Positions 52,724-64,000 of a stretch of 64,000 bases of DNA are shown here, piece by piece. Both the position numbers and the translations under genes were made by a program. The notes under the pieces are model-generated. The model saw nothing but the letters and a program-made list of their open reading frames with translations, made no database searches and was not told the origin of the DNA. The DNA is taken from NCBI GenBank assembly GCA_008501635.1, contig QQUJ01000017.1:186001-250000 (forward strand). Reading direction: 5' to 3'. The stretch comes from Pseudomonadota bacterium. GTDB lineage: Bacteria > Pseudomonadota > Gammaproteobacteria > QQUJ01. Numbering within the stretch: position 1 is the stretch's first letter; every line of letters begins with the position of its first letter.

Positions 52724-53179
52724 ATGAAATTTTCAATTCCCGAAACGTTGACTCGTGAACATGCGGCTCTGCATGGTCGATTGCACGAGGCCTTGGAGGC
52801 AGGTGGTGCAGTCGCTGCCGCCACCCAAAACCTGATCGACAAGCTGCATCCGCACTTTGTGCGCGAGGAAGAGATCGCGATGCCGCCGCTGGGTTTGCTG
52901 GCCCCGCTAGCCAAGGGCGAGTATCGAAGTGAGATGGACCAGGTGCTGGAATACACGGAGGCACTGGCCGAAGAGCTACCCCGTATGCTTGAAGAGCATG
53001 AGGCTATCAGGTCGGCCGTTCAGCAACTCAGGAGCGCTGCCAAAGAGTCGGGCCGCCAGGACATCGTGGAGTTTTGTGATGATCTGGGCGAGCACGCACG
53101 CTCTGAGGAGGAGGTGCTCTACCCCGCGGCTTTACTGGTAGGCGAGGTAGTGCGCCAGCACAGTTTGGAAGCGGTTTAG
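52724..53179 (+). CDS. Hemerythrin HHE-domain protein
   Basis: The 151-residue all-helical protein carries the hemerythrin-like metal residues in LTREHAALHGRL (His12, His16), LHPHFVREEEIAMPPL near 42, EEHEAIRSAV near 90 and EHARSEEEVLYPA near 125. It should bind a di-iron centre that holds oxygen or nitric oxide, or repairs iron centres. ATG 52724 is preceded by AGGAG. It is divergent from the Crp-type gene. Confidence 0.88.
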   Translation: MKFSIPETLTREHAALHGRLHEALEAGGAVAAATQNLIDKLHPHFVREEEIAMPPLGLLAPLAKGEYRSEMDQVLEYTEALAEELPRMLEEHEAIRSAVQQLRSAAKESGRQDIVEFCDDLGEHARSEEEVLYPAALLVGEVVRQHSLEAV

Positions 53180-53264
53180 CGACCCGCCGTGCGCGGTGTA
53201 GTGCGGGGTTGTTTGTCAGCGAGACAGCCCCGCCTTGACTCCCCACTGGATGTCGATTCGCCGG

Positions 53265-53294
53265 GCTGCCACCCCCGAACCTCGGGGTGGCGGC
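53265..53294. terminator. Hairpin between convergent hemerythrin and DsrE genes
   Basis: GCTGCCACCCC (53265-53275) and GGGGTGGCGGC (53284-53294) form an 11-bp stem with one wobble pair. It sits between two convergent genes and can serve as a bidirectional stop. No T-tract is seen. Confidence 0.45.
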
Positions 53295-53327
53295 GCTGGT
53301 GACAAAGACGGTAACGGGATTGGTTGG

Positions 53328-53693
53328 CTAGGGACGAATATAAGCCCAGCCCTCTTGCTGGCGCTCCATGAGATGGACCACACCGGCCGGTACCACCTTG
53401 GCCGGTGACAGCAGCGCGATCTCCTGGTTCTCCTTCCTGCCCATTCCCTTCATGGTGTTGCCGCAGGCCATGAACGAAATATTGGAGAAGTTCTGCGAAA
53501 AAGATTGGACGCGGTCTTTTACCGGTGACGTATCGGCGCGCAGCATGTGCAGCCCCGGGCCGTAGGCGACGATTTCGATCTCCACCTCTTCGGCTTTGTC
53601 CTTGTAGTACGCATCCACGTTGGCCGCGTTGTTGAGCGTGAGATTCATGCGCGCAGGGTCATTTTCATCAACATGGAAAACGACACGGTGCAC
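53328..53693 (-). CDS. DsrE-family protein
   Basis: The 121-residue protein has the DsrE/F-like fold: VVFHVDENDPARMNLTLNN at the start, IEIVAYGPGLHMLRAD near 42, and a single conserved Cys in FMACGNTMKGM near 78. Members carry or transfer sulfur in sulfur oxidisers, or act in stress responses when not linked to dsr genes. No dsr operon is in view, so its role is open. It converges on the hemerythrin gene. Confidence 0.85.
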   Translation of the reverse strand: MHRVVFHVDENDPARMNLTLNNAANVDAYYKDKAEEVEIEIVAYGPGLHMLRADTSPVKDRVQSFSQNFSNISFMACGNTMKGMGRKENQEIALLSPAKVVPAGVVHLMERQQEGWAYIRP

Positions 53694-54015
53694 TGGCTGT
53701 TATGTCTCTGCTCTCGCATAGACTCTTTTCCCACTTCTGTCTAAGGATCTGTAATGTAGTCATAAACCGATAAGGTAACGGTCCGGCCCGCGGCTAGCCG
53801 ATCGAGAAAATCATGCGCGACGTTCACACTTGGATGATCGGAGATGGCTACACTGAAGCCGTACCATCAAAACCGGTCGATACATCTGCAGCACGTGATC
53901 CGATAGCGTGCTTAGCTCTTTGGTTTCGCGACCTTAAATAGTCGCGGTGTTGCGATTGAGTGCCAAGACGCGGACCGCTTATGTCATGACGTTAGATGGG
54001 CGGCTTCCCGTGCTC
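53694..54015. other. Intergenic stretch with no supported gene
   Basis: About 320 bases between the DsrE gene and the MoCF-type gene hold no gene, repeat or clear structure that I could support. The MoCF gene ends here, so it marks the edge of the GntR-controlled locus. Confidence 0.5.
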
Positions 54016-54903
54016 CTATCCGATGACCGGTGTACCATGGAGTCGTGCGTGCAAAACATCGACGATATTTCCCGCTAGGCATTCTCGATCATACCCTTGG
54101 CGCAATCCCTCAATCAGCACCGGTGCTGCCTCTTTTACTTCGGCATGAGGTCCCGTCAAGGCCACGAGCATTGTCTGTTCCACGTGCCCCACAGCGATTC
54201 GAACGCCTTCCTTATAATGGCGTCCGTGACCTCTTTGATACTGCACAACGTACGGCGTCGCGGCGTCAGGGGCCAGGGCCGTGATCGCCTCGACCATGCA
54301 GTCCTTGAGTTCGGCGCCGGTGCCGCCCGTGGAGACAACCAGACCGAATCCCCGGCCTATGGCGTCCGTCAAAGCACCGATAGCAACGTCGATGTCGTCG
54401 TCGACAACCGAGCCCGCTTTCGCCTCATAGCCATTGATAGTGAACAACTCCATCAAGAAGGGGGTATTGGTATCCATCACGTTTCCAGCCATGATCTCGC
54501 GACCGGTTGGAAGAATCATGACTTTCCTAGCGAGTTTCTCGCGTAATTGGCCACGGAAGTCGGACATCGCTCCCGGAAGAGTCTCTGCGCGTTCGGGAGA
54601 GAGATTGATTACTCCCAGAATGCCGTCCGAATGGATTTCCGTTTCCGTGCCCACGGAAAGACCCGGGATACACGATAGCGATTCAAGGAGAGCCCGTCTC
54701 TTACCCGCCAACCGGCCGATGTCGTCGGGGTCGCTCAGGAGATCGAGGGTCAGCTGATCCGAATGCGCATCGACAACCAGTACGTCTTCAGGCGACAGAG
54801 TGAGGCTATCGGCGACCGCAGCCGCGATCAGGTCGAGGTCTACATCCGTCAAGCTCAACCCGGTGATTCTGAGTTCGCGTTTGTTGAATAGATGCACGGT
54901 CAT
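54016..54903 (-). CDS. MoCF/CinA-type (COG1058-like) protein with N-terminal extension
   Basis: This 295-residue protein has the MoCF fold in its C-terminal half: EIMAGNVMDTNTPFLMELF near 136-154, GYEAKAGSVVDDDIDVAI and STGGTGAELKDCMVEAI near 192. These match MoaB/MogA and the COG1058 domain of CinA. That domain binds molybdopterin in some proteins and is an ADP-ribose pyrophosphatase in CinA. About 130 residues at the N-terminus (TVHLFNKRELRITGLSLTDV) were not recognised. The start at ATG 54903 has GGAGGG seven bases upstream. A nucleotide-processing role would suit the nearby LarE and NadC-like genes, but this is inference. Confidence 0.7.
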   Translation of the reverse strand: MTVHLFNKRELRITGLSLTDVDLDLIAAAVADSLTLSPEDVLVVDAHSDQLTLDLLSDPDDIGRLAGKRRALLESLSCIPGLSVGTETEIHSDGILGVINLSPERAETLPGAMSDFRGQLREKLARKVMILPTGREIMAGNVMDTNTPFLMELFTINGYEAKAGSVVDDDIDVAIGALTDAIGRGFGLVVSTGGTGAELKDCMVEAITALAPDAATPYVVQYQRGHGRHYKEGVRIAVGHVEQTMLVALTGPHAEVKEAAPVLIEGLRQGYDRECLAGNIVDVLHARLHGTPVIG

Positions 54904-54916
54904 GGCACGCCCTCCT

Positions 54917-55684
54917 TCAATACTCAACATGCGAGCGAAAATCCTTCACCGCTGCCTGTAGGGACTGGACGATCAGGGCCATGACGGAGACGGTGAAGTA
55001 GCGGACCCCGAGGCTCCGCAACGGGTTTATCTGTTCCAAATCTGTAACGTGGACACCGCATGCCTTGCCTGATGCAACTATCATAGGGATGAGCTTCTGG
55101 AGCAGACCAACCATTCGTTGATCGGCAGGCGTTGGGAAGCCATAGTCCAATGACAAATCGCTCGTTCCCAAAAAAACCGCATCAACACCTTCAACGGTCA
55201 GGATATGGGTCAATTGATCAACTCCTCGACGGCTTTCCACTTGGATGGCAACCACGGTTTCCGCCTGCGCCTCGCTCATCACATCGGAGCGCTGCCTAAA
55301 GCCATATCCGGCGGTCGAAGTGGTTGAGCCGAATCCACGGCGCCCTCTAGGCGGAAATTGGCTGGCGATTACGATTGCATCCGCCTCGGCTGCAGTCACA
55401 ACTGATGGAACCTGGATTCCGGTAGCGCCAGAGTCGAGGGCGGCTTGAATTCCAGTCGGGTCGGCATCGGCTGTGCGTACTATCGCTGGAGTCCCGCGAA
55501 ATCGTGCCGAACGCAGGCACTCCTCCATTTCAAGGCGGGAGAAAACCCCGTGCTCCCCATCAAAAATGATGAAATCGAAACCTGCCCGTGCAGCCATTTC
55601 CGCCAATGGCGGTGATGCCATCCCGATAAACGCGCCCAGCAGCGGCGTGCCCGAGGAGGCGGCTAGCGCCTTCTTAAAGGTCAT
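54917..55684 (-). CDS. HpcH/HpaI-family class II aldolase or lyase
   Basis: The 255-residue protein matches the HpcH/HpaI family. It has GFDFIIFDGEHGVFSRLEME near 35-54, a metal-binding Glu in AIQVESRRGVDQLTHIL near 143, and FLGTSDLSLDYGFP near 167-180. These enzymes use a divalent metal to cleave 4-hydroxy-2-oxo acids into pyruvate or oxaloacetate-type products. Its start overlaps the end of the cupin gene by 11 bases, so both are in one transcript. It is a likely catabolic enzyme for the substrate of this locus. Confidence 0.87.
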   Translation of the reverse strand: MTFKKALAASSGTPLLGAFIGMASPPLAEMAARAGFDFIIFDGEHGVFSRLEMEECLRSARFRGTPAIVRTADADPTGIQAALDSGATGIQVPSVVTAAEADAIVIASQFPPRGRRGFGSTTSTAGYGFRQRSDVMSEAQAETVVAIQVESRRGVDQLTHILTVEGVDAVFLGTSDLSLDYGFPTPADQRMVGLLQKLIPMIVASGKACGVHVTDLEQINPLRSLGVRYFTVSVMALIVQSLQAAVKDFRSHVEY

Positions 55685-56024
55685 CGCCCGTCGACACCAA
55701 ATAGTCTTCACGGATTGGGCTGAAGACGTCCAGGTTCAGGATCGGCGTGTCTCCGAGAGGGCGCAGTCCGTGCTTAACGTTGGAGGGGACGAGTACGACA
55801 TCGCCTTTGCTCATACGAATTGTCTCATCACCCAGATAGAATTCGCACTCGCCTAACAAAATATAGGTAATTTGCTCGTGGGGATGGCTGTGAATGGCCG
55901 GGCATGCGGATGCCTGTATTTCGTTCATCACCACCGTACTGTTTTTTCCCGAGAACACCCGCCGATCGACACCCTCACGAGCGATGATCCGTCGAATGCT
56001 GTCAAAATTCGCCACCTTAGCCAT
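55674..56024 (-). CDS. Single-domain cupin
   Basis: This 116-residue protein has the cupin signature HSHPHEQITYILLGECEFYLG near residues 45-65 (two His and one Glu as metal ligands) and GDVVLVPSNVKHGLRP near 74 with a further His. It is a compact metal-binding barrel that may be an isomerase, dioxygenase or sensor. Start ATG 56024 has GGAG five bases upstream. It is the first gene of the minus-strand arm and faces the GntR gene across the divergent promoter. Confidence 0.86.
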   Translation of the reverse strand: MAKVANFDSIRRIIAREGVDRRVFSGKNSTVVMNEIQASACPAIHSHPHEQITYILLGECEFYLGDETIRMSKGDVVLVPSNVKHGLRPLGDTPILNLDVFSPIREDYLVSTGDDL

Positions 56025-56137
56025 ACGATCTCCATTGTTGGCCCCAGTTGCCGCAACGAACGGAATCAATTGGGGAAGGACTGTGTGGTCTGGTGCTTAC
56101 CGCAGCCGTACCAGTATCAATCTGCCATAAAATACAT

Positions 56138-56179: not shown

Positions 56180-56212
56180 CCCTTGCGCCTATGCGGAGAG
56201 GGGGATCGGATC

Positions 56213-56926
56213 TTGGTTGAGCAAATCATACGTTTCGACACCAAGTCGCGTATCGCCTATGGGGCGATAAAGACCGCCATTGCAGAAGGGCGCTATCTGC
56301 CGGGAGAGAAGATCGGCATCTCGCAGATTGCCAGAGAGTTGAGCACAAGTGATATTCCGGTCCGCGAGGCTATGCAGCGTCTGGAGGCTGAGGGATTGCT
56401 GGAATACACGCCCCACGTCGGTTTCCGGGTGACATCCCCCGATTTCGGCCATTACATCCACTTGTTCGAAGTGCGCCAACTGCTCGAAGGGGAGGCGGCA
56501 AAGCGTGCCGCTACGCGAATTTCAGCGAATTCCCTCGCGGAATTGAAGAGGCTGGATTCTGAAATGGCTACCGCGATGCGTGAGGGGGGTATGCAATCCT
56601 TCTCGCAGTTAAACCGCCAATTCCATACTGTGCTTTTCGAAGCGAGTGAAAATCCGGTTTTGATACGGGAGATCGAACACGTGGGGTCGATCTATCCCCG
56701 CACTAATGCCATTTTCGTGATGTTCCCTCAACGAGCCCAGTCGACCATGCGTGAGCACGCGTTGATCATCCAATGCTTGGAGAGTCGAGATCCCGCCGCA
56801 ACCAATCACGCCTATCTCGCCCACATGGCCGCCGGATACGAAATGCTGCTCAGGTATCGAGGGGAAATGTCAGGCGAAGTTGGCGCGCAGAACTTAGCTA
56901 TCAACGGTATCTCAGGAGGTAAGTGA
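56213..56926 (+). CDS. GntR-family regulator with FCD domain
   Basis: This protein of about 237 residues has an N-terminal winged helix (AYGAIKTAIAEGRYLPGEKI, then ISQIARELSTSDIPVREAMQ) and a C-terminal FCD ligand domain with His-rich metal sites (LNRQFHTVLFEASENP near 140 and STMREHALIIQCLESRD near 178). FCD regulators bind organic acids. The start is uncertain: TTG 56213 follows a GAGAGGGGG tract, whereas the frame opens at TTG 56183. It lies at the centre of the divergent locus and probably represses both arms. Confidence 0.86.
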   Translation: MVEQIIRFDTKSRIAYGAIKTAIAEGRYLPGEKIGISQIARELSTSDIPVREAMQRLEAEGLLEYTPHVGFRVTSPDFGHYIHLFEVRQLLEGEAAKRAATRISANSLAELKRLDSEMATAMREGGMQSFSQLNRQFHTVLFEASENPVLIREIEHVGSIYPRTNAIFVMFPQRAQSTMREHALIIQCLESRDPAATNHAYLAHMAAGYEMLLRYRGEMSGEVGAQNLAINGISGGK

Positions 56927-56928
56927 TT

Positions 56929-57534
56929 ATGCCATCGGTAAACCGCGTGGCGGTAATCGACGATAAGCTCTGTACGAGATGTCCGGTATGCATCAGGGAC
57001 TGCCCAACCGAAGCCATCTGGCGAGAAATAATCGACAAAAAGCACTTCATTCGCATCGATAACGATAAATGCCTGGATTGTACAATCTGTTTCACGCGTT
57101 GCCCGGAACATGCCATCGGCATGGAGCCCCGAAGCGAACCTCTGTCATTTGGGATCGACTGGACCAAGGCTGACTCGGCTGAAGTTAAACGAATTTGCTT
57201 GGCCGCTCACATGCACGAGGAGCAAGTGATTTGCTTCTGCCGGCAGACACAGGCTCGCGAAGTGGCGGCCGCAATACTTCTCGGGCACACCACACCTGAA
57301 AGCCTGTCTCTCGCCACAGGTATCCGCACGGGCTGCGGCGTACTGTGCGTGACGGCGGTACTCAGGTTGCTGAAAGCCGCCGGAATCGAAGTCGGCAAGG
57401 CGCCTGGATGGCAGTGGTATGGGTCGTATATCACCATCTGGGATATCCCGCCTGAGGTGCGACAGAAGTATCCCGAGTATTTCGTCGAGGATGATTATCA
57501 GCTTGCTCTGCAACTCTATCCAAATGAGGTCTGA
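56929..57534 (+). CDS. Ferredoxin with 2x[4Fe-4S] and BFD-like [2Fe-2S] domains
   Basis: The 201-residue protein has two 4Fe-4S motifs (CTRCPVCIRDCP near 16 and CLDCTICFTRCP near 48). A second region (about 97-150) has ICFCRQTQAREVAAAILLGH and GIRTGCGVLC, the CxC and Cys-rich ends of a bacterioferritin-associated-ferredoxin-like domain. The combined domains suggest an electron-transfer partner. It follows the GntR gene with a 2-base gap and AGGAGG at 56914-56919. Electron delivery to a neighbouring enzyme is inferred. Confidence 0.85.
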   Translation: MPSVNRVAVIDDKLCTRCPVCIRDCPTEAIWREIIDKKHFIRIDNDKCLDCTICFTRCPEHAIGMEPRSEPLSFGIDWTKADSAEVKRICLAAHMHEEQVICFCRQTQAREVAAAILLGHTTPESLSLATGIRTGCGVLCVTAVLRLLKAAGIEVGKAPGWQWYGSYITIWDIPPEVRQKYPEYFVEDDYQLALQLYPNEV

Positions 57535-57536
57535 CG

Positions 57537-58961
57537 ATGTCTTTGTCCACGTTGCAACCCGTCGAACCGAGAGCGTCGTACTACAACATCTCTCCGAGCG
57601 ATCTCAAGATGCGGGCCGTGGATCTGCCCGGACTGATTTCGATACGTACAAAAGACCTGTTCCCGATCCCTGAAACCCCTGTCACTGCCGCATCGCCGGA
57701 GGCGATGTGCGACATCATCCGGACCAAGACCATCCAGACGCTCGAAAAGGTGAATCTCGAGCGTGTCCGACCCAACGATTCGGTCAATATCCTGACCTCC
57801 CACCATGGGTACTCTATATATGGCGGTCATGCCTATGTGGAGATGATCCGCACCCTTCGTGACGAAATTGAACGCCGCACTGGCGCCAAGGATATTCGGT
57901 TGCGTGCCGGGGTCGGGCTACGTTTTCGGGAGACCGAGGAATATATCGAGAAGTTTGGATTGAAAGAGTACTTCCATGGTAAGGCCGAAGGAATCGCTCC
58001 TGTCGACCGAGGCGTACCCATCGAAACAGAGATCGGAAGACTCTATGGTATAGCCAAGGCTTACGATGCCCGCTGGATCGTTCACGCGCACAACAACGAC
58101 GTAAGGGAACTGCATTATCATCGCCAACTCGGGCGCCTGTTCAAGCCCTTTGCCATGTCCTATGCGACTATTGAGACCCGCTCGTCCTATCATCAGAGCA
58201 CCGGTCCGCGCATGGCCAATCTATTGCCCCGGCTCATTTGGGAATCAGAACATGTACAAAAGCGCTACCTTTGCGGCTGCATGTTGCAGGTAGGACCGGA
58301 AGGGATCATGGGTGTTGACGCCAACGAAGATCTCGTGGCGCAGGACAAAGAGTTCTGCAAACTGAACCTGCGTTGGTATGGCAAGCTGCTCACTTTATTG
58401 GGAGCGATCGACAAAGCCATCATCATCCTCGACTATCCGGGTCCGATCCCATATACGACTGCGGGAGGGATTCTTTTCGGGAATTTTTTGAATGCCAATG
58501 TCGATGAATTCGATCTCAGGCAAGTAACGCCATTTACTCGCTACACAGATATGCTGTACCCGGATGTGAAGCCTTTGGTCACCAACGTGCTAACTCCTCC
58601 GAACCCGGCCATTAAAGCGGTGGTGTTGAACTATTGTTCGAAGGGCTATCCAGGAACCTTCTTTCCCAAACAAATGCCGGTTCTGGTCGTTGGGGCGCAA
58701 GCGAAGCTATTGGAGGTAGACGAGCAAAATAGCGAGTTCATGAAGTACGCCGTTGAAGTGGACAGTCTACCCAAGGCGGTGAACTTCAGCCGTAACTTCG
58801 CCAAGACCGACAACATATTGGTCTTCGACGGCGCCGTTGGCGGGTTCAACGTCAGCGAACCTTTAGCGGAACAGATGTATCGACTCGCGCCAGAAATCTC
58901 ATCCACTGTAGATGATGTGCTGATGCCTATGTGGCTCAAGCAGCGCGGCATCGTTCATTAA
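57537..58961 (+). CDS. LarA-like (lactate racemase-family) protein, putative nickel-pincer enzyme
   Basis: This 474-residue protein was not recognised with confidence as a whole, but its middle fits the LarA (Lar_N/DUF2088) layout. The N-terminal part has SVNILTSHHGYSIYGGH near 82-98 and AGVGLRFRETEEYIEKFGL near 124-142, which resemble the LarA stretches around Arg75 and His108. In LarA of Lactobacillus plantarum His174, Lys184 and His200 hold or contact the nickel-pincer cofactor. Here H193, K203 and H219 have exactly the same spacing (10 and 16 residues). The equivalent of His108 appears to be Leu128. A larE gene lies in the same operon. The substrate is unknown; lost His108 suggests a reaction other than simple racemisation. 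Confidence 0.55.
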   Translation: MSLSTLQPVEPRASYYNISPSDLKMRAVDLPGLISIRTKDLFPIPETPVTAASPEAMCDIIRTKTIQTLEKVNLERVRPNDSVNILTSHHGYSIYGGHAYVEMIRTLRDEIERRTGAKDIRLRAGVGLRFRETEEYIEKFGLKEYFHGKAEGIAPVDRGVPIETEIGRLYGIAKAYDARWIVHAHNNDVRELHYHRQLGRLFKPFAMSYATIETRSSYHQSTGPRMANLLPRLIWESEHVQKRYLCGCMLQVGPEGIMGVDANEDLVAQDKEFCKLNLRWYGKLLTLLGAIDKAIIILDYPGPIPYTTAGGILFGNFLNANVDEFDLRQVTPFTRYTDMLYPDVKPLVTNVLTPPNPAIKAVVLNYCSKGYPGTFFPKQMPVLVVGAQAKLLEVDEQNSEFMKYAVEVDSLPKAVNFSRNFAKTDNILVFDGAVGGFNVSEPLAEQMYRLAPEISSTVDDVLMPMWLKQRGIVH

Positions 58962-59101: not shown

Positions 59102-60091
59102 ATGAAGAAAACAGAAGCGAAGGGGATTCTGAAAAAAGGTTCGATGTCTCTTGCGGTCTTTGGGTTGGCCCTCTTGGGCGCCGTGCCCGGTTCCTGGGCA
59201 GCCGACCAAAAAGTGCTTTCGATAGCGACCGGTGGTAGCGGCGGCACCTACTTCGCCATCGGCAGCGGTATGGCGACCTTGGTTTCCAAGTACATGCCTG
59301 ATTACAAGCTGGTTGTGCAGTCGACTGCGGCGAGCATTGAGAACATCCACTTGGTTGCCAACAAGAAGGTGGATTTCGCCATCGTTATGCCCGATTCTGC
59401 CTATTTTGCTACCATCGGCGGGCGGGAATTCAGTGGTAAGGCGAAGTACGACAATCTGCGGGCAGTGACGGCTGGTCATGCCTCCCTCCTGCAGGCGGCC
59501 TCCTTGAAATCCTCGGGGATCAAGAACTTTACCGATTTAAGAGGTAAAAAGGTCGCTCTGGGCGCCCCGGGAAGTCCGTCAAAATTCCTGACTATGGCTG
59601 CGCTCGAAGCCTACGACTTGAAATCTGACGACTATCAAGCCGCTTTTCTCACCTACGCCGAGATGGTGGAGGGATTGAAAGACGGTAACATCGATGCGTC
59701 AGCGGTTTTCGCTGGTATTCCGACTTCGTCCATGCTTGACTTGGCCACCACAACGAAAATCAATTTCTTGCCGGTGGAGGAGAGCAAGTTCGCCTTCCTC
59801 AAGAAAAACTATCCCTACTATTCTAAGGCGGTTATCGCAGCCAACACCTATACCGGGCAGGATGCGCCAGTAACAACTCTCGCCGCGCCGGCAATCCTGA
59901 TCACCAATAGCGACGTGCCGGAAGAGGTCGTGCACCAGTTCATCAGGACGATCTTGGAGCATACCGATGAACTGGCCGCCATTCACCCCGCTGGCGCCAA
60001 ATGGAACCTGCAAACGGCCACTGATGGCATCGCCATCCCGTTCCACCCGGGGGCGAAGAAATACCTGCAGGAAAAGAACAAGTTGAACTGA
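59102..60091 (+). CDS. TAXI-family TRAP transporter substrate-binding protein
   Basis: The 329-residue protein has a signal peptide (ending near GSWAADQ, residue 33) and the TAXI family start KVLSIATGGSGGTYFAIGSG near 39-58, with ALGAPGSPSKFLTMAALEAYD near 155. TAXI proteins bind organic acids such as glutamate or C4-dicarboxylates in the periplasm. ATG 59102 follows AAAGGAG at 59087-59093. The DUF1850 and permease genes that follow complete a TAXI TRAP system. The ligand is unknown. Confidence 0.92.
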   Translation: MKKTEAKGILKKGSMSLAVFGLALLGAVPGSWAADQKVLSIATGGSGGTYFAIGSGMATLVSKYMPDYKLVVQSTAASIENIHLVANKKVDFAIVMPDSAYFATIGGREFSGKAKYDNLRAVTAGHASLLQAASLKSSGIKNFTDLRGKKVALGAPGSPSKFLTMAALEAYDLKSDDYQAAFLTYAEMVEGLKDGNIDASAVFAGIPTSSMLDLATTTKINFLPVEESKFAFLKKNYPYYSKAVIAANTYTGQDAPVTTLAAPAILITNSDVPEEVVHQFIRTILEHTDELAAIHPAGAKWNLQTATDGIAIPFHPGAKKYLQEKNKLN

Positions 60092-60170
60092 AGCGTGGCC
60101 ACAGGGGAGGTGCCGATAGAAAACGGACCTCCCCTCCGTACCGCTAGTGACGACGATTGCAACCATTTCG

Positions 60171-60695
60171 ATGAAGAAAGCGCGAACTGTTGCAATCTGG
60201 GCGACGCTGGGCTTGGCGCTGGTCTTGATGGGGGGATACCTGCTTCTCCCCGTAACGAGGGTACAGTTGAACCTTTCCTCCATGGCTGGCAACCGAGAAC
60301 ACTCTGTGATCCTTTCCGTTGCTCCTGGAGGGAGGATAGGCATCGGTTTTGAGCATTCGTTGTACAAGGTTGAACAAGTCGAGACCTATTTCGTGCAAAA
60401 GAGCGGATTACTGCTGAAATCGGTTTATTTCGGCTCATTTGACGCCCTCAACTACTACGACCCGATTGGGGAGCTACCGCGGAAGTCCAAAGGAACCGGC
60501 TATGAGGTGGTATTCAGGCGTTCCGTACCGGGAGAAATCAAGTTTTCCATTGCTCGAAGCACCCCGATCTGGCTGGTTGTTGGGGATGATCCTCCGCTGT
60601 TCCTGACAGATATCCCTAAAGACTTCACGCAATTTTCTCTTCAAACAATTCGGAGGCCGAGGATCCAGATCCTGTTGGGGAAACTACGCTCATGA
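60171..60695 (+). CDS. DUF1850-domain protein of a TAXI TRAP system
   Basis: This 174-residue protein has an N-terminal membrane helix (about 7-26) and an extracytoplasmic DUF1850 domain with GIGFEHSLYKVEQVETYFV near 62. The family is found almost only between TAXI binding-protein and permease genes. Its role is unsettled. The stop overlaps the permease start by four bases. ATG 60171 is chosen, but GTG 60147 is also in frame and neither has a good ribosome binding site. Confidence 0.83.
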   Translation: MKKARTVAIWATLGLALVLMGGYLLLPVTRVQLNLSSMAGNREHSVILSVAPGGRIGIGFEHSLYKVEQVETYFVQKSGLLLKSVYFGSFDALNYYDPIGELPRKSKGTGYEVVFRRSVPGEIKFSIARSTPIWLVVGDDPPLFLTDIPKDFTQFSLQTIRRPRIQILLGKLRS

Positions 60696-62617
60696 CCTCG
60701 TTCAATAGTTTTTTTCAATCAGCCACAGCACACATCACGAAGCTGGTCTGCATCCTGTTCGGTCTTTTTCATCTCTATACCGCAGGCTGGGGAACGCTTG
60801 GTGCCATGGATCAGAGGGTGATCCACATCACCTTCATCCTAGTTCTAGTCTTTCTCAACAAGCCAGTCCACGCGGGCGTCAACGGCGCCTGGCGGCTCTT
60901 GGACGTGATATTGACCCTGGTAGCGCTGGCGGTTGGCGGTTACCTGTACCTTAATTCGGAGGAGATTGCCTTTCGTCTGGGAATCGCCAATATGATTGAC
61001 TTGGCCGCTGGCGCTGCCCTTATCCTCCTACTAATGGAAGCGACCCGCCGGGTCATAGGGTGGCCCCTCCCCTTCATCGCCGGTACAGCCATTCTCTATG
61101 GCTTCTTCGGCGACAAGCTCCCGGGTATCCTAGCCCACGGTGGATTTGAGGTGGACCGCCTTATCAGTCATCTATCGTTGACCACCGAGGGAATATTCAC
61201 GGTGCCGCTCAGCGTTTCTGCAACGGTGGTCGTCATCTTCATCATCTTTGCCACTTTTCTCAACGCCACGGGAGCTGGACAGTATTTCATTGATCTGGTG
61301 ATGAGCTACTTCGGCCGTAGTAGGGGGGCGCCGGCCAAGGCGGCGGTGGTGGGCAGCGCCATGATGGGAACTCTCAGCGGCAGCGTCATCGCCAACGTGA
61401 TGGGAACCGGCTCCTTCACGATCCCGCTGATGAAACGCTCGGGGTACCGACCGGTGGTTGCCGGGGCGGTGGAAGCCTGCACGTCCACTGGCGGACAGAT
61501 AATGCCCCCGATCATGGGGGCGGCCGCTTTCATAATCGCTGAGTTTCTGCGAGTTCCGTACTTGGAGGTGATCAAGGCTGCTGTCATACCGGCTATTCTT
61601 TTCTACGTGGCGCTTTTCATTTACGTGCACTTGGAGGCGGCACGGGGTGGCTTGAAGGCGTTGCCCGATGAAGAGATCCGCGAGTATCGGAAGCGCAGGC
61701 AGGGCAAGTATTATCAGCTCATCCCCCTCGTCGCTCTGGTGGTGATGATGGCCTCTCTCGGCTGGTCACCAACCCGTTCAGCTTTCTTCGCTATTCTTAT
61801 CACCCTCGCTATTGGCTTCATTCAGAAGGAAGGGCGACTCACCTTCACTAAGCTGATCGACATGTTCCGGCAGGCGGGGATGACGATGCTGGAGGTAGCC
61901 ACTGCGTGTGCTACTGCCGGAATCATCATTGGTATCCTCTCCCTCACCGGACTCGGGCTGCAGCTGTCGAGCATTCTTACCGGGATAGCCGGGGGAAATT
62001 TAATGATCTTGCTCGTTCTCACGATGTTCGTTTCCCTTATTCTCGGAATGGGTCTGACTACCACTGCCTGTTACGTTATTCTCGCTGTGCTGGTTGCCCC
62101 GGCCATAATCAAAATGGGGATCGATCCAATGGCTGCGCACTTGTTCGTCTTCTACTACGGTATGTACTCCTTCATTACTCCACCCGTCTCGCTCGGCGCC
62201 TTCGCCGCCGCTGGGATCTCCGGCTCGTCGCCGATGGCGACTGGCTACATGGCGTGGAAGATCGCCCTCCCAGGCTTTATCCTTCCTTTCATGTTCACTT
62301 CATTCCCGGCGATGTTGATGAAGGGATCCTGGCCGGAGATTCTCTACGTCACCACTACCGGCCTGGCGGGCGTGTTCTTCATCTCGGCGGCGACCGTCGG
62401 CTATTTCCGACGGGATCTCAACAGGTTGGTGCGGGGCATGATGATCGTTGCTGGAGTCCTGCTCGTTCACGGCGGAATGCTGACCGACGTGATCGGTATC
62501 GTCCTCGGTGGAGCCACGGTTCTCAGCTGTTACCTCCGCTCCCCCCACCCCAGCGAGGCCCACGCAATCGACGGTATAGTTCCAGCCGATGCACCTCAAT
62601 CTCGTAACGACGTCTAG
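60692..62617 (+). CDS. Fused (4TM/12TM) TRAP transporter permease
   Basis: This 641-residue protein combines the small and large TRAP membrane subunits, as is usual for TAXI-type systems. About 16 or more helices are visible. The DctM-like part shows VGSAMMGTLSGSVIANVMGT near 217-236, GQIMPPIMGAAAFIIAEFL near 268, and FVSLILGMGLTTTACYVIL near 445. Transport is driven by a Na+ or H+ gradient. It starts at ATG 60692, overlapping the DUF1850 stop. Confidence 0.94.
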   Translation: MTSFNSFFQSATAHITKLVCILFGLFHLYTAGWGTLGAMDQRVIHITFILVLVFLNKPVHAGVNGAWRLLDVILTLVALAVGGYLYLNSEEIAFRLGIANMIDLAAGAALILLLMEATRRVIGWPLPFIAGTAILYGFFGDKLPGILAHGGFEVDRLISHLSLTTEGIFTVPLSVSATVVVIFIIFATFLNATGAGQYFIDLVMSYFGRSRGAPAKAAVVGSAMMGTLSGSVIANVMGTGSFTIPLMKRSGYRPVVAGAVEACTSTGGQIMPPIMGAAAFIIAEFLRVPYLEVIKAAVIPAILFYVALFIYVHLEAARGGLKALPDEEIREYRKRRQGKYYQLIPLVALVVMMASLGWSPTRSAFFAILITLAIGFIQKEGRLTFTKLIDMFRQAGMTMLEVATACATAGIIIGILSLTGLGLQLSSILTGIAGGNLMILLVLTMFVSLILGMGLTTTACYVILAVLVAPAIIKMGIDPMAAHLFVFYYGMYSFITPPVSLGAFAAAGISGSSPMATGYMAWKIALPGFILPFMFTSFPAMLMKGSWPEILYVTTTGLAGVFFISAATVGYFRRDLNRLVRGMMIVAGVLLVHGGMLTDVIGIVLGGATVLSCYLRSPHPSEAHAIDGIVPADAPQSRNDV

Positions 62618-62633
62618 AACGGGGTACAGGGGG

Positions 62634-63503
62634 ATGTCTGACAACGCCGGAAATCACGACCTTAGGGACGACATTTTCGCTTCTGTTATGGAGAGACGAT
62701 ACATCGCAGAGGTCCGGGTCACTACCCCTGGATTGGTTTGCGGCGTCGAACTGGCCCGCCGCAAGGTGGAGGTCCTGGACTGCGAAGTGCTGGACGCCGT
62801 CAGGGACGGTGCCGACGCGACACCGGAAAGTCCCATTCTTACGTTCACCGGCTCCGCCAAAGCAGTCGCCATGGCCGAGGATTGTGTGCCTGGTGCCATC
62901 GCTAAGCCCTCGGGTATCGCCCGTGCTGCCCGCAAGGCCCGAGATCTTGCTGCCGGCAAGGTGCGTGTAGTATCCGGCGCTGCTAAAAAGATGCCGTCCG
63001 AGGTTAAGGACCAGGTCCGCAAGGCCGTCCATTGCGGCGGCGGTAGCGGTCGTATAGCCAACGGCCCCTTTCTCTATCTGGACAAAAACTATGTGCGCAT
63101 CTTCGGTAGCGTGCGCCAAACACTTGCTGCGGTCGCCAGCATGACCGGCCATGTCCGCGCCATTCAACTGCGGGGTTTGGTGGAGGATATCGCCACAGAG
63201 GCCCACACCGCTATCGAGTTGGGGGCTGAGATTCTGATGGTGGACACTGGGCGGTTGGATGATCTCGACTTGGTGGCATCGATAGTGCGGGAATCCGGGC
63301 GTCGCCCGTTTGTCACTATCGCCTTTGCCGGAGATATCGAGTTGGAAGACATCCCCAAGATCGCGACCCACGACGTGGACATCTTGGATATTGGGCGCGC
63401 CGTCATCGATGCGCCTATGGTGGATATCAAATTCGACATTATTGCGAAACGCGCCGCTCCTCGACAGGGCGCCTGCGACCCCGCTGACGCATCGCGTAAA
63501 TGA
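62634..63503 (+). CDS. NadC-family (quinolinate phosphoribosyltransferase-like) protein
   Basis: This 289-residue protein matches the NadC/ModD fold: LVCGVELARRKVEVLDCEVL near 34, SGIARAARKARDLAAGKVRV near 100, HCGGGSGRIANGPFLYLDKN near 137-156, GAEILMVDTGRLDDLDLV near 200 and FAGDIELEDIPKIATHDVDI near 225. True NadC makes nicotinate mononucleotide from quinolinate. Usual markers such as DTRKTTPG at the active site are not seen: the place reads VVSGAAKKMPSE. It is therefore a paralogue, probably with another acid or base substrate. Beside larE it may feed nicotinate-type nucleotides to cofactor synthesis. Confidence 0.8.
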   Translation: MSDNAGNHDLRDDIFASVMERRYIAEVRVTTPGLVCGVELARRKVEVLDCEVLDAVRDGADATPESPILTFTGSAKAVAMAEDCVPGAIAKPSGIARAARKARDLAAGKVRVVSGAAKKMPSEVKDQVRKAVHCGGGSGRIANGPFLYLDKNYVRIFGSVRQTLAAVASMTGHVRAIQLRGLVEDIATEAHTAIELGAEILMVDTGRLDDLDLVASIVRESGRRPFVTIAFAGDIELEDIPKIATHDVDILDIGRAVIDAPMVDIKFDIIAKRAAPRQGACDPADASRK

Positions 63504-63633
63504 TCGAGCCAGCGCCTCCGTTGTATGGTTGCCTGGCCACCTCGTTTGGCGACTGCGTCGCCGGTCTCGTACCGGGGCTTGCCGGCATCGTAAGGTTATC
63601 CAAAGCGCAAAACATATATTAGGAGTTGGGCAT

Positions 63634-64000
63634 GTCGACAATAGAACTTCAGGCTCGTCTGTTGCAAGAATTGGGGCGGCACACGCGTATTGCCATCGCT
63701 GTTAGCGGAGGTATAGACAGCATGACTCTCGCTTTTATCGCACACCGTTTGTCGCCACACCCCGCGGCCATGGTACATGCTGTTTCTCCCGCAGTGCCAC
63801 CTAAGGCTACAGAACGGGTTGAGGCCTATGCGGCGCGGGAAGGGTGGGACTTGACCATCGTTGACGCCGGAGAATTCGCTGACCCCATCTATCGCGCCAA
63901 CCCGGTGGATCGCTGTTATTACTGCAAGTCCCATCTTTACAATCGCATTCATGCCCTGGTCCAAGGAACCGTCGCGTCCGGAGCTAATCTGGACGACCTG
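63634..64000 (+). CDS. larE: LarE-type sulfur transferase for the nickel-pincer cofactor, N-terminal part
   Basis: The gene starts at ATG 63634 behind AGGAG (63623-63627) and runs off the window after 122 residues. It shows the PP-loop ATP-binding motif AIAVSGGIDSMTLAFIAHR near 21-39, the LarE-type NPVDRCYYCKSHLYNRI near 89-105 and VASGANLDDL at the end (matching the GTNxDDL region). LarE is an ATP-dependent enzyme that inserts sulfur into pyridinium-3,5-biscarboxylic acid mononucleotide. The part that would show a sacrificial Cys or a [4Fe-4S] site lies outside the window. Confidence 0.9.

Follow-up and report, generated by a model that had tools for sequence, protein, structure and literature searches.

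P0001, a protein of 474 amino acids encoded at positions 57537-58961 on the forward strand of the window (the whole stretch of 64,000 nucleotides analysed here), emerges as the likeliest user of the rare nickel-pincer (NPN) cofactor of the lactate racemase LarA in two genomes, i.e. that of the window (G000) and that of the contigs L003 and L059 (G748). This candidate NPN-dependent enzyme most likely has the LarA fold in a deeply diverged form, and the combined view that it is an NPN enzyme and distantly LarA-like seems to us a somewhat better than even bet. Genes for LarB, LarC and LarE occur without larA in about 15% of surveyed genomes, so that NPN proteins not yet known or unrecognised relatives of LarA exist, and which proteins use NPN in such genomes is a question posed in the same study (PMC11796402). 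NPN enzymes with demonstrated activity are, in the literature surveyed, hydroxy-acid racemases or epimerases. P0001 provides a specific and testable NPN candidate that is found beside cofactor genes, a transporter, a regulator and a possible redox partner.

That P0001 is the likely NPN user follows from the presence of genes for LarE, LarB, LarC1 and NadC-like and NadD-like proteins in its operon together with the lack of a recognisable larA gene. The operon begins with a GntR/FCD regulator (56183-56926, forward strand, as are all genes up to LarC1), followed by a protein with 4Fe-4S ferredoxin and BFD [2Fe-2S] domains (56923-57534), P0001 itself, a TRAP TAXI solute-binding subunit (59102-60091, coordinates from tblastn; TIGR02122), a DUF1850-like protein (60147-60695; a weak match), a fused TRAP permease (60692-62617; TIGR02123), a NadC-like phosphoribosyltransferase (62637-63503; below the nadC equivalog cut-off) and LarE (63632-64000), which is cut by the window end and continues to position 10448 of L005, the same contig beyond this end. 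Here, LarB (L005 10448-11104) and LarC1 (L005 11107-12000) come next, and a NadD-like gene (L005 11997-12680) follows on the reverse strand. From the GntR gene through LarC1, several of the genes overlap. As in known larB/larC/larE sets, LarE and LarB exceed their curated cut-offs (236.7 bits versus 150 for TIGR00268, and 231.8 bits versus 175 for NF033503), as does LarC1 (162 bits versus 90 for TIGR00299), and LarE contains a CXXC-C motif, as in the [4Fe-4S] type of this protein known from Thermotoga (PMC9283937). Lar_N proteins were detected neither in G000 (at E values up to 10) nor, above the cut-off, in G748, and the genome G747 has one Lar_N protein plus a full LarC, both on another contig. 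It is mainly the operon context and the lack of a Lar_N gene in the genome that support the link to the NPN cofactor already drawn in the preliminary description.

The P0001 reading frame is intact and real, and its product is without a match to any profile in Pfam, NCBIfam or PDB searches. Four family members are known, i.e. the proteins of the window, of L002 (91% identity to P0001) and of L003 (89%) as well as one Chloroflexi protein split between the contigs L009 and L004 (65% and 70% over these two parts, respectively). Searches of plasmids and viral contigs, and of 369 genomes from the same class, 398 from the phylum and 400 from the phylum to which the Chloroflexi MAG belongs, yielded no further homologs, and a P0001-type protein did not appear in the literature searched, which had most subscription journals outside its coverage. 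Because homologs are so few, P0001 has no usable AlphaFold model; predictions for the full protein and for residues 30-300 have very low confidence (pLDDT 41.5 and 42.8).

Gene order in L002 is the same as in the window operon, whilst G748 has the cofactor genes in a different order (LarC1-LarE-LarB-NadD-like-NadC-like), contiguous and directly after the P0001/TRAP cluster. In all four genomes, which represent two phyla, the Fe-S/BFD protein is encoded directly upstream of P0001. The Chloroflexi cluster retains this protein, P0001 and the NadC-like gene as well as three genes that in the window lie on the reverse strand ahead of the operon, i.e. a cupin (55674-56069), an HpcH/HpaI aldolase (54917-55711) and a MoCF (MogA/MoaB-like) domain protein (54016-54930). 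LarC, and LarB above the cut-off, were not found in this small Chloroflexi MAG, which is likely to be incomplete and carries a Lar_N gene. That P0001 and its partners are retained there is a point for a different reading, in which P0001 does not bind NPN at all and is another catabolic enzyme of the cluster, with the LarBCE cofactor being used elsewhere inside or outside the putative genomic island described below. The same reading would gain from the LarC of the operon being LarC1 only, since the NPN pathway may therefore be altered. However, the other genes in the cluster can be assigned to known families whose roles are different, which leaves P0001 as the sole unassigned enzyme-sized protein, and P0001 carries the LarA-like triple of residues discussed below. 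We thus regard an NPN-free P0001 as unlikely, yet as a rival to be taken seriously.

The P0001 cluster is unlike known larB/larC/larE sets in that LarC ends after its first half and NadC-like, NadD-like and MoCF genes are added. This LarC matches Ni_insertion only in positions 3-229 of 375, and its second half is absent in all three clusters that have a LarC (L005 11107-12000, L002 15420-16298 and L059 727-1752), each with a His-rich N-terminal extension that fits a role in nickel handling. LarC2 was also sought downstream of LarC1 and is absent from this place, where the NadD-like gene lies on the opposite strand. MogA-like proteins belong to a family that nucleotidylates molybdopterin. With LarC2 absent and a MogA-like protein conserved in the cluster, the MoCF protein may therefore be a candidate stand-in for the missing half. 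Normally, LarC cytidinylylates P2TMN before nickel insertion (PMC11796402). The N-terminal domain of the MoCF protein was considered as LarC2 itself and rejected, as by eye there is no resemblance. The NadC-like and NadD-like genes could feed NaAD. In an alignment, the motifs by which quinolinate phosphoribosyltransferases bind their substrate are changed in the NadC-like protein from TRKT to GAAKK, from SHR to SGR and from KDNH to LDKNY; its pyridine substrate may therefore not be quinolinate.

In LarA, His108 and His174 alternate as acid and base, and NPN takes and returns the hydride, with the cofactor being secured by Lys184 and His200 (PMC12611868, PMC9283937). The preliminary description had placed H193, K203 and H219 of P0001 at the same spacing (10 and 16 residues) as His174, Lys184 and His200, and this was borne out on the P0001 sequence, with the LarA numbering checked on the sequence of 5HUQ (His108 lies in GFHRP; His174, Lys184, His200, Asp72 and Arg75 agree with the literature). 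H193 (codon 58113-58115, forward strand, as for all codons given here) is the candidate equivalent of the acid/base His174 by spacing and by MAFFT, whereas K203 (58143-58145) and H219 (58191-58193) are candidate equivalents of the cofactor anchor Lys184 and the nickel ligand His200 by spacing only. The H-x9-K-x15-H triple is invariant in four of four P0001 family members, the Chloroflexi one included, and is present in 29 of the 32 LarA homologs fetched. It appears anywhere in 1.1% of composition-preserving shuffles of P0001 (P 0.011) and within 12 residues of position 193 in 0.06% (P 0.0006), so that the significance of the spacing, taken alone, is modest.

Besides this spacing and a similar length, P0001 shares with the LarA superfamily (PF09861; L. 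plantarum LarA, PDB 5HUQ) two weakly similar, collinear blocks in the N-domain, and its operon has the LarB, LarE and LarC genes. PSSM blocks around Asp72 and His108, which were built from the 32 LarA homologs, score highest in P0001 at positions 77 and 116, i.e. at a spacing of 39 versus 36 in LarA, with a joint shuffle P of 0.004 for blocks that were chosen after the fact and with LarA in mind. The offsets of the two blocks are identical in all four family members, and R129 and H193 are 64 residues apart (66 for the corresponding residues in LarA). Among 189 open reading frames of at least 250 codons scanned in all fetched DNA, the only ones in which the triple and the best two-block match are separated much as in LarA were 29 LarA homologs and the four members of the P0001 family, and on the two blocks one unrelated reading frame outscored P0001 and another came close. 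Taken together, these similarities are suggestive of homology to LarA.

The label ‘LarA-like’, as it had been applied to P0001 at the outset, is nevertheless not confirmed by standard profile tests. The HMM search against Lar_N (PF09861) that the preliminary description had proposed gave no match at E values up to 10. hhalign aligned P0001 in register with one LarA profile; with a 17-sequence LarA profile the result was not significant, as 173 of 400 column-permuted controls matched or beat P0001. PSSMs of the GTPV block and of the block following His200 gave no signal in P0001, and the stretch around K203 has no similarity to LarA beyond H/K/H and scores worse than random once these residues are masked. 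In MAFFT alignments of both families, H193 came to stand under His174 in all four modes and K203 and H219 were shifted by three. LarA relatives that could have served as additional alignment rows were sought in viral contigs, where none was found.

Since neither hmmscan nor hhalign relates P0001 significantly to LarA, this protein might alternatively bind NPN as the representative of a separate, non-homologous protein family, with the H-K-H spacing being coincidental. The absence of Asp72, Arg75 and the GG motif of LarA would be natural for such a family, operon and genome context fit it equally well, and the existence of non-LarA NPN proteins is expected (PMC11796402). It would leave to chance, however, that the triple sits at a LarA-like place (0.06% of shuffles) and that two N-domain blocks are collinear (P 0.004), and we consider a separate origin rather improbable. 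Common descent with LarA remains our preferred reading, and although it does not match the Lar_N profile and lacks several of the LarA residues, P0001 probably works like a LarA enzyme.

If so, its active site would be altered more deeply than by one missing base. The absence of a catalytic His, which had been proposed previously, holds at the level of sequence, with no His in the aligned segment, but the residue opposite His108 is not Leu128, as was then assumed. This assignment is one position off, since in the best register (hhalign, PSSM) G-F-H108-R of LarA is opposite G127-L128-R129-F130, which puts Arg129 (codon 57921-57923; invariant in the four homologs) at this position. In the same register, Asp72 corresponds to His89 (codon 57801-57803; placed by PSSM and invariant), Arg75 to Tyr92 and the GG preceding Lys184 to Leu201-Phe202. 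In 17 of 17 aligned LarA homologs, Asp72, Arg75 and the GG of the SGGxK motif are invariant, and the S varies. Retention of the cofactor ligands, also claimed before, is deduced from the H/K/H spacing only, and Asp72, Arg75 and SGG of LarA are not retained.

These replacements also bear on whether P0001 could be an ordinary, if very diverged, LarA-type racemase or epimerase that recruits its second base from another His. H89, H90, H185 and H195 are invariant in the P0001 family and could serve in this way, and a TRAP importer fits the use of hydroxy acids. Yet the position of His108 is taken by an invariant Arg, Asp72, Arg75 and SGG are lost, and a conserved Fe-S partner would be unexpected for a redox-neutral isomerase, which makes this explanation highly improbable. 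The suggestion of the preliminary description that P0001 has a chemistry different from racemisation is plausible.

The lack of a catalytic His has precedents, because LarA homologs with a single His have already been published for Blautia wexlerae and Streptococcus plurextorum (PMC12611868; PDB 9q2u, 9q3j). Like P0001, these have lost one catalytic His and kept the positions of the cofactor Lys and the nickel His. In these proteins, however, His174 is replaced by Asn, with His108 and the Lar_N domain being kept (PMC12611868), whereas P0001 appears to keep His174 (as H193) and to lose His108 (Arg129), and does not match Lar_N. Two adjacent LarA homologs in another genome of the class (L011 1459-2769 and L013 373-1743) have Gln at the position of His174 and match Lar_N; by sequence they represent a different one-His variant.

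For a P0001 that is distantly LarA-like, the following mechanism can be envisaged. K203 would anchor NPN, H219 would complete nickel coordination and H193 would act as the single acid/base, whereas Arg129 in place of His108 might bind or polarise the substrate with no proton exchange. NPN would then accept a hydride from one stereoisomer only. Since the conserved partner of P0001 is an Fe-S/BFD protein, this hydride may be passed on as electrons instead of being returned to the opposite face, so that a hydroxy acid, which the TRAP system perhaps imports, would undergo net oxidation. The redox step, taken by itself, is a tentative proposal that we think could be right but would not expect to be. 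More doubtful still is the full scenario, in which P0001 founds an NPN family that runs net oxidation or reduction via the Fe-S/BFD protein, using a cofactor that receives its nickel from LarC1 and a MogA-like nucleotidyltransferase acting in place of LarC2.

The genomic setting of the cluster has some further features. A direct repeat of 716 bp, 100% identical in its two copies (window 52985-53700 and L005 16017-16732, approximately 17 kb apart), brackets the operon and contains a small reading frame that we take to be DsrE-like. Between the repeats, the G+C content is 0.52-0.60 versus 0.64-0.66 outside, and the operon has the appearance of an island that was integrated or duplicated recently, although an assembly artefact is conceivable. 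L002 (WYAX01000025.1) is filed as a MAG of Nitrospira defluvii; its cluster is approximately 85-92% identical to that of the window, and this MAG may therefore be mixed. In two genomes, UbiD-family decarboxylases are encoded beside the P0001 cluster, i.e. one at L003 16585-17961 and three at L004 3534-8878, which is a hint at the pathway of the substrate.
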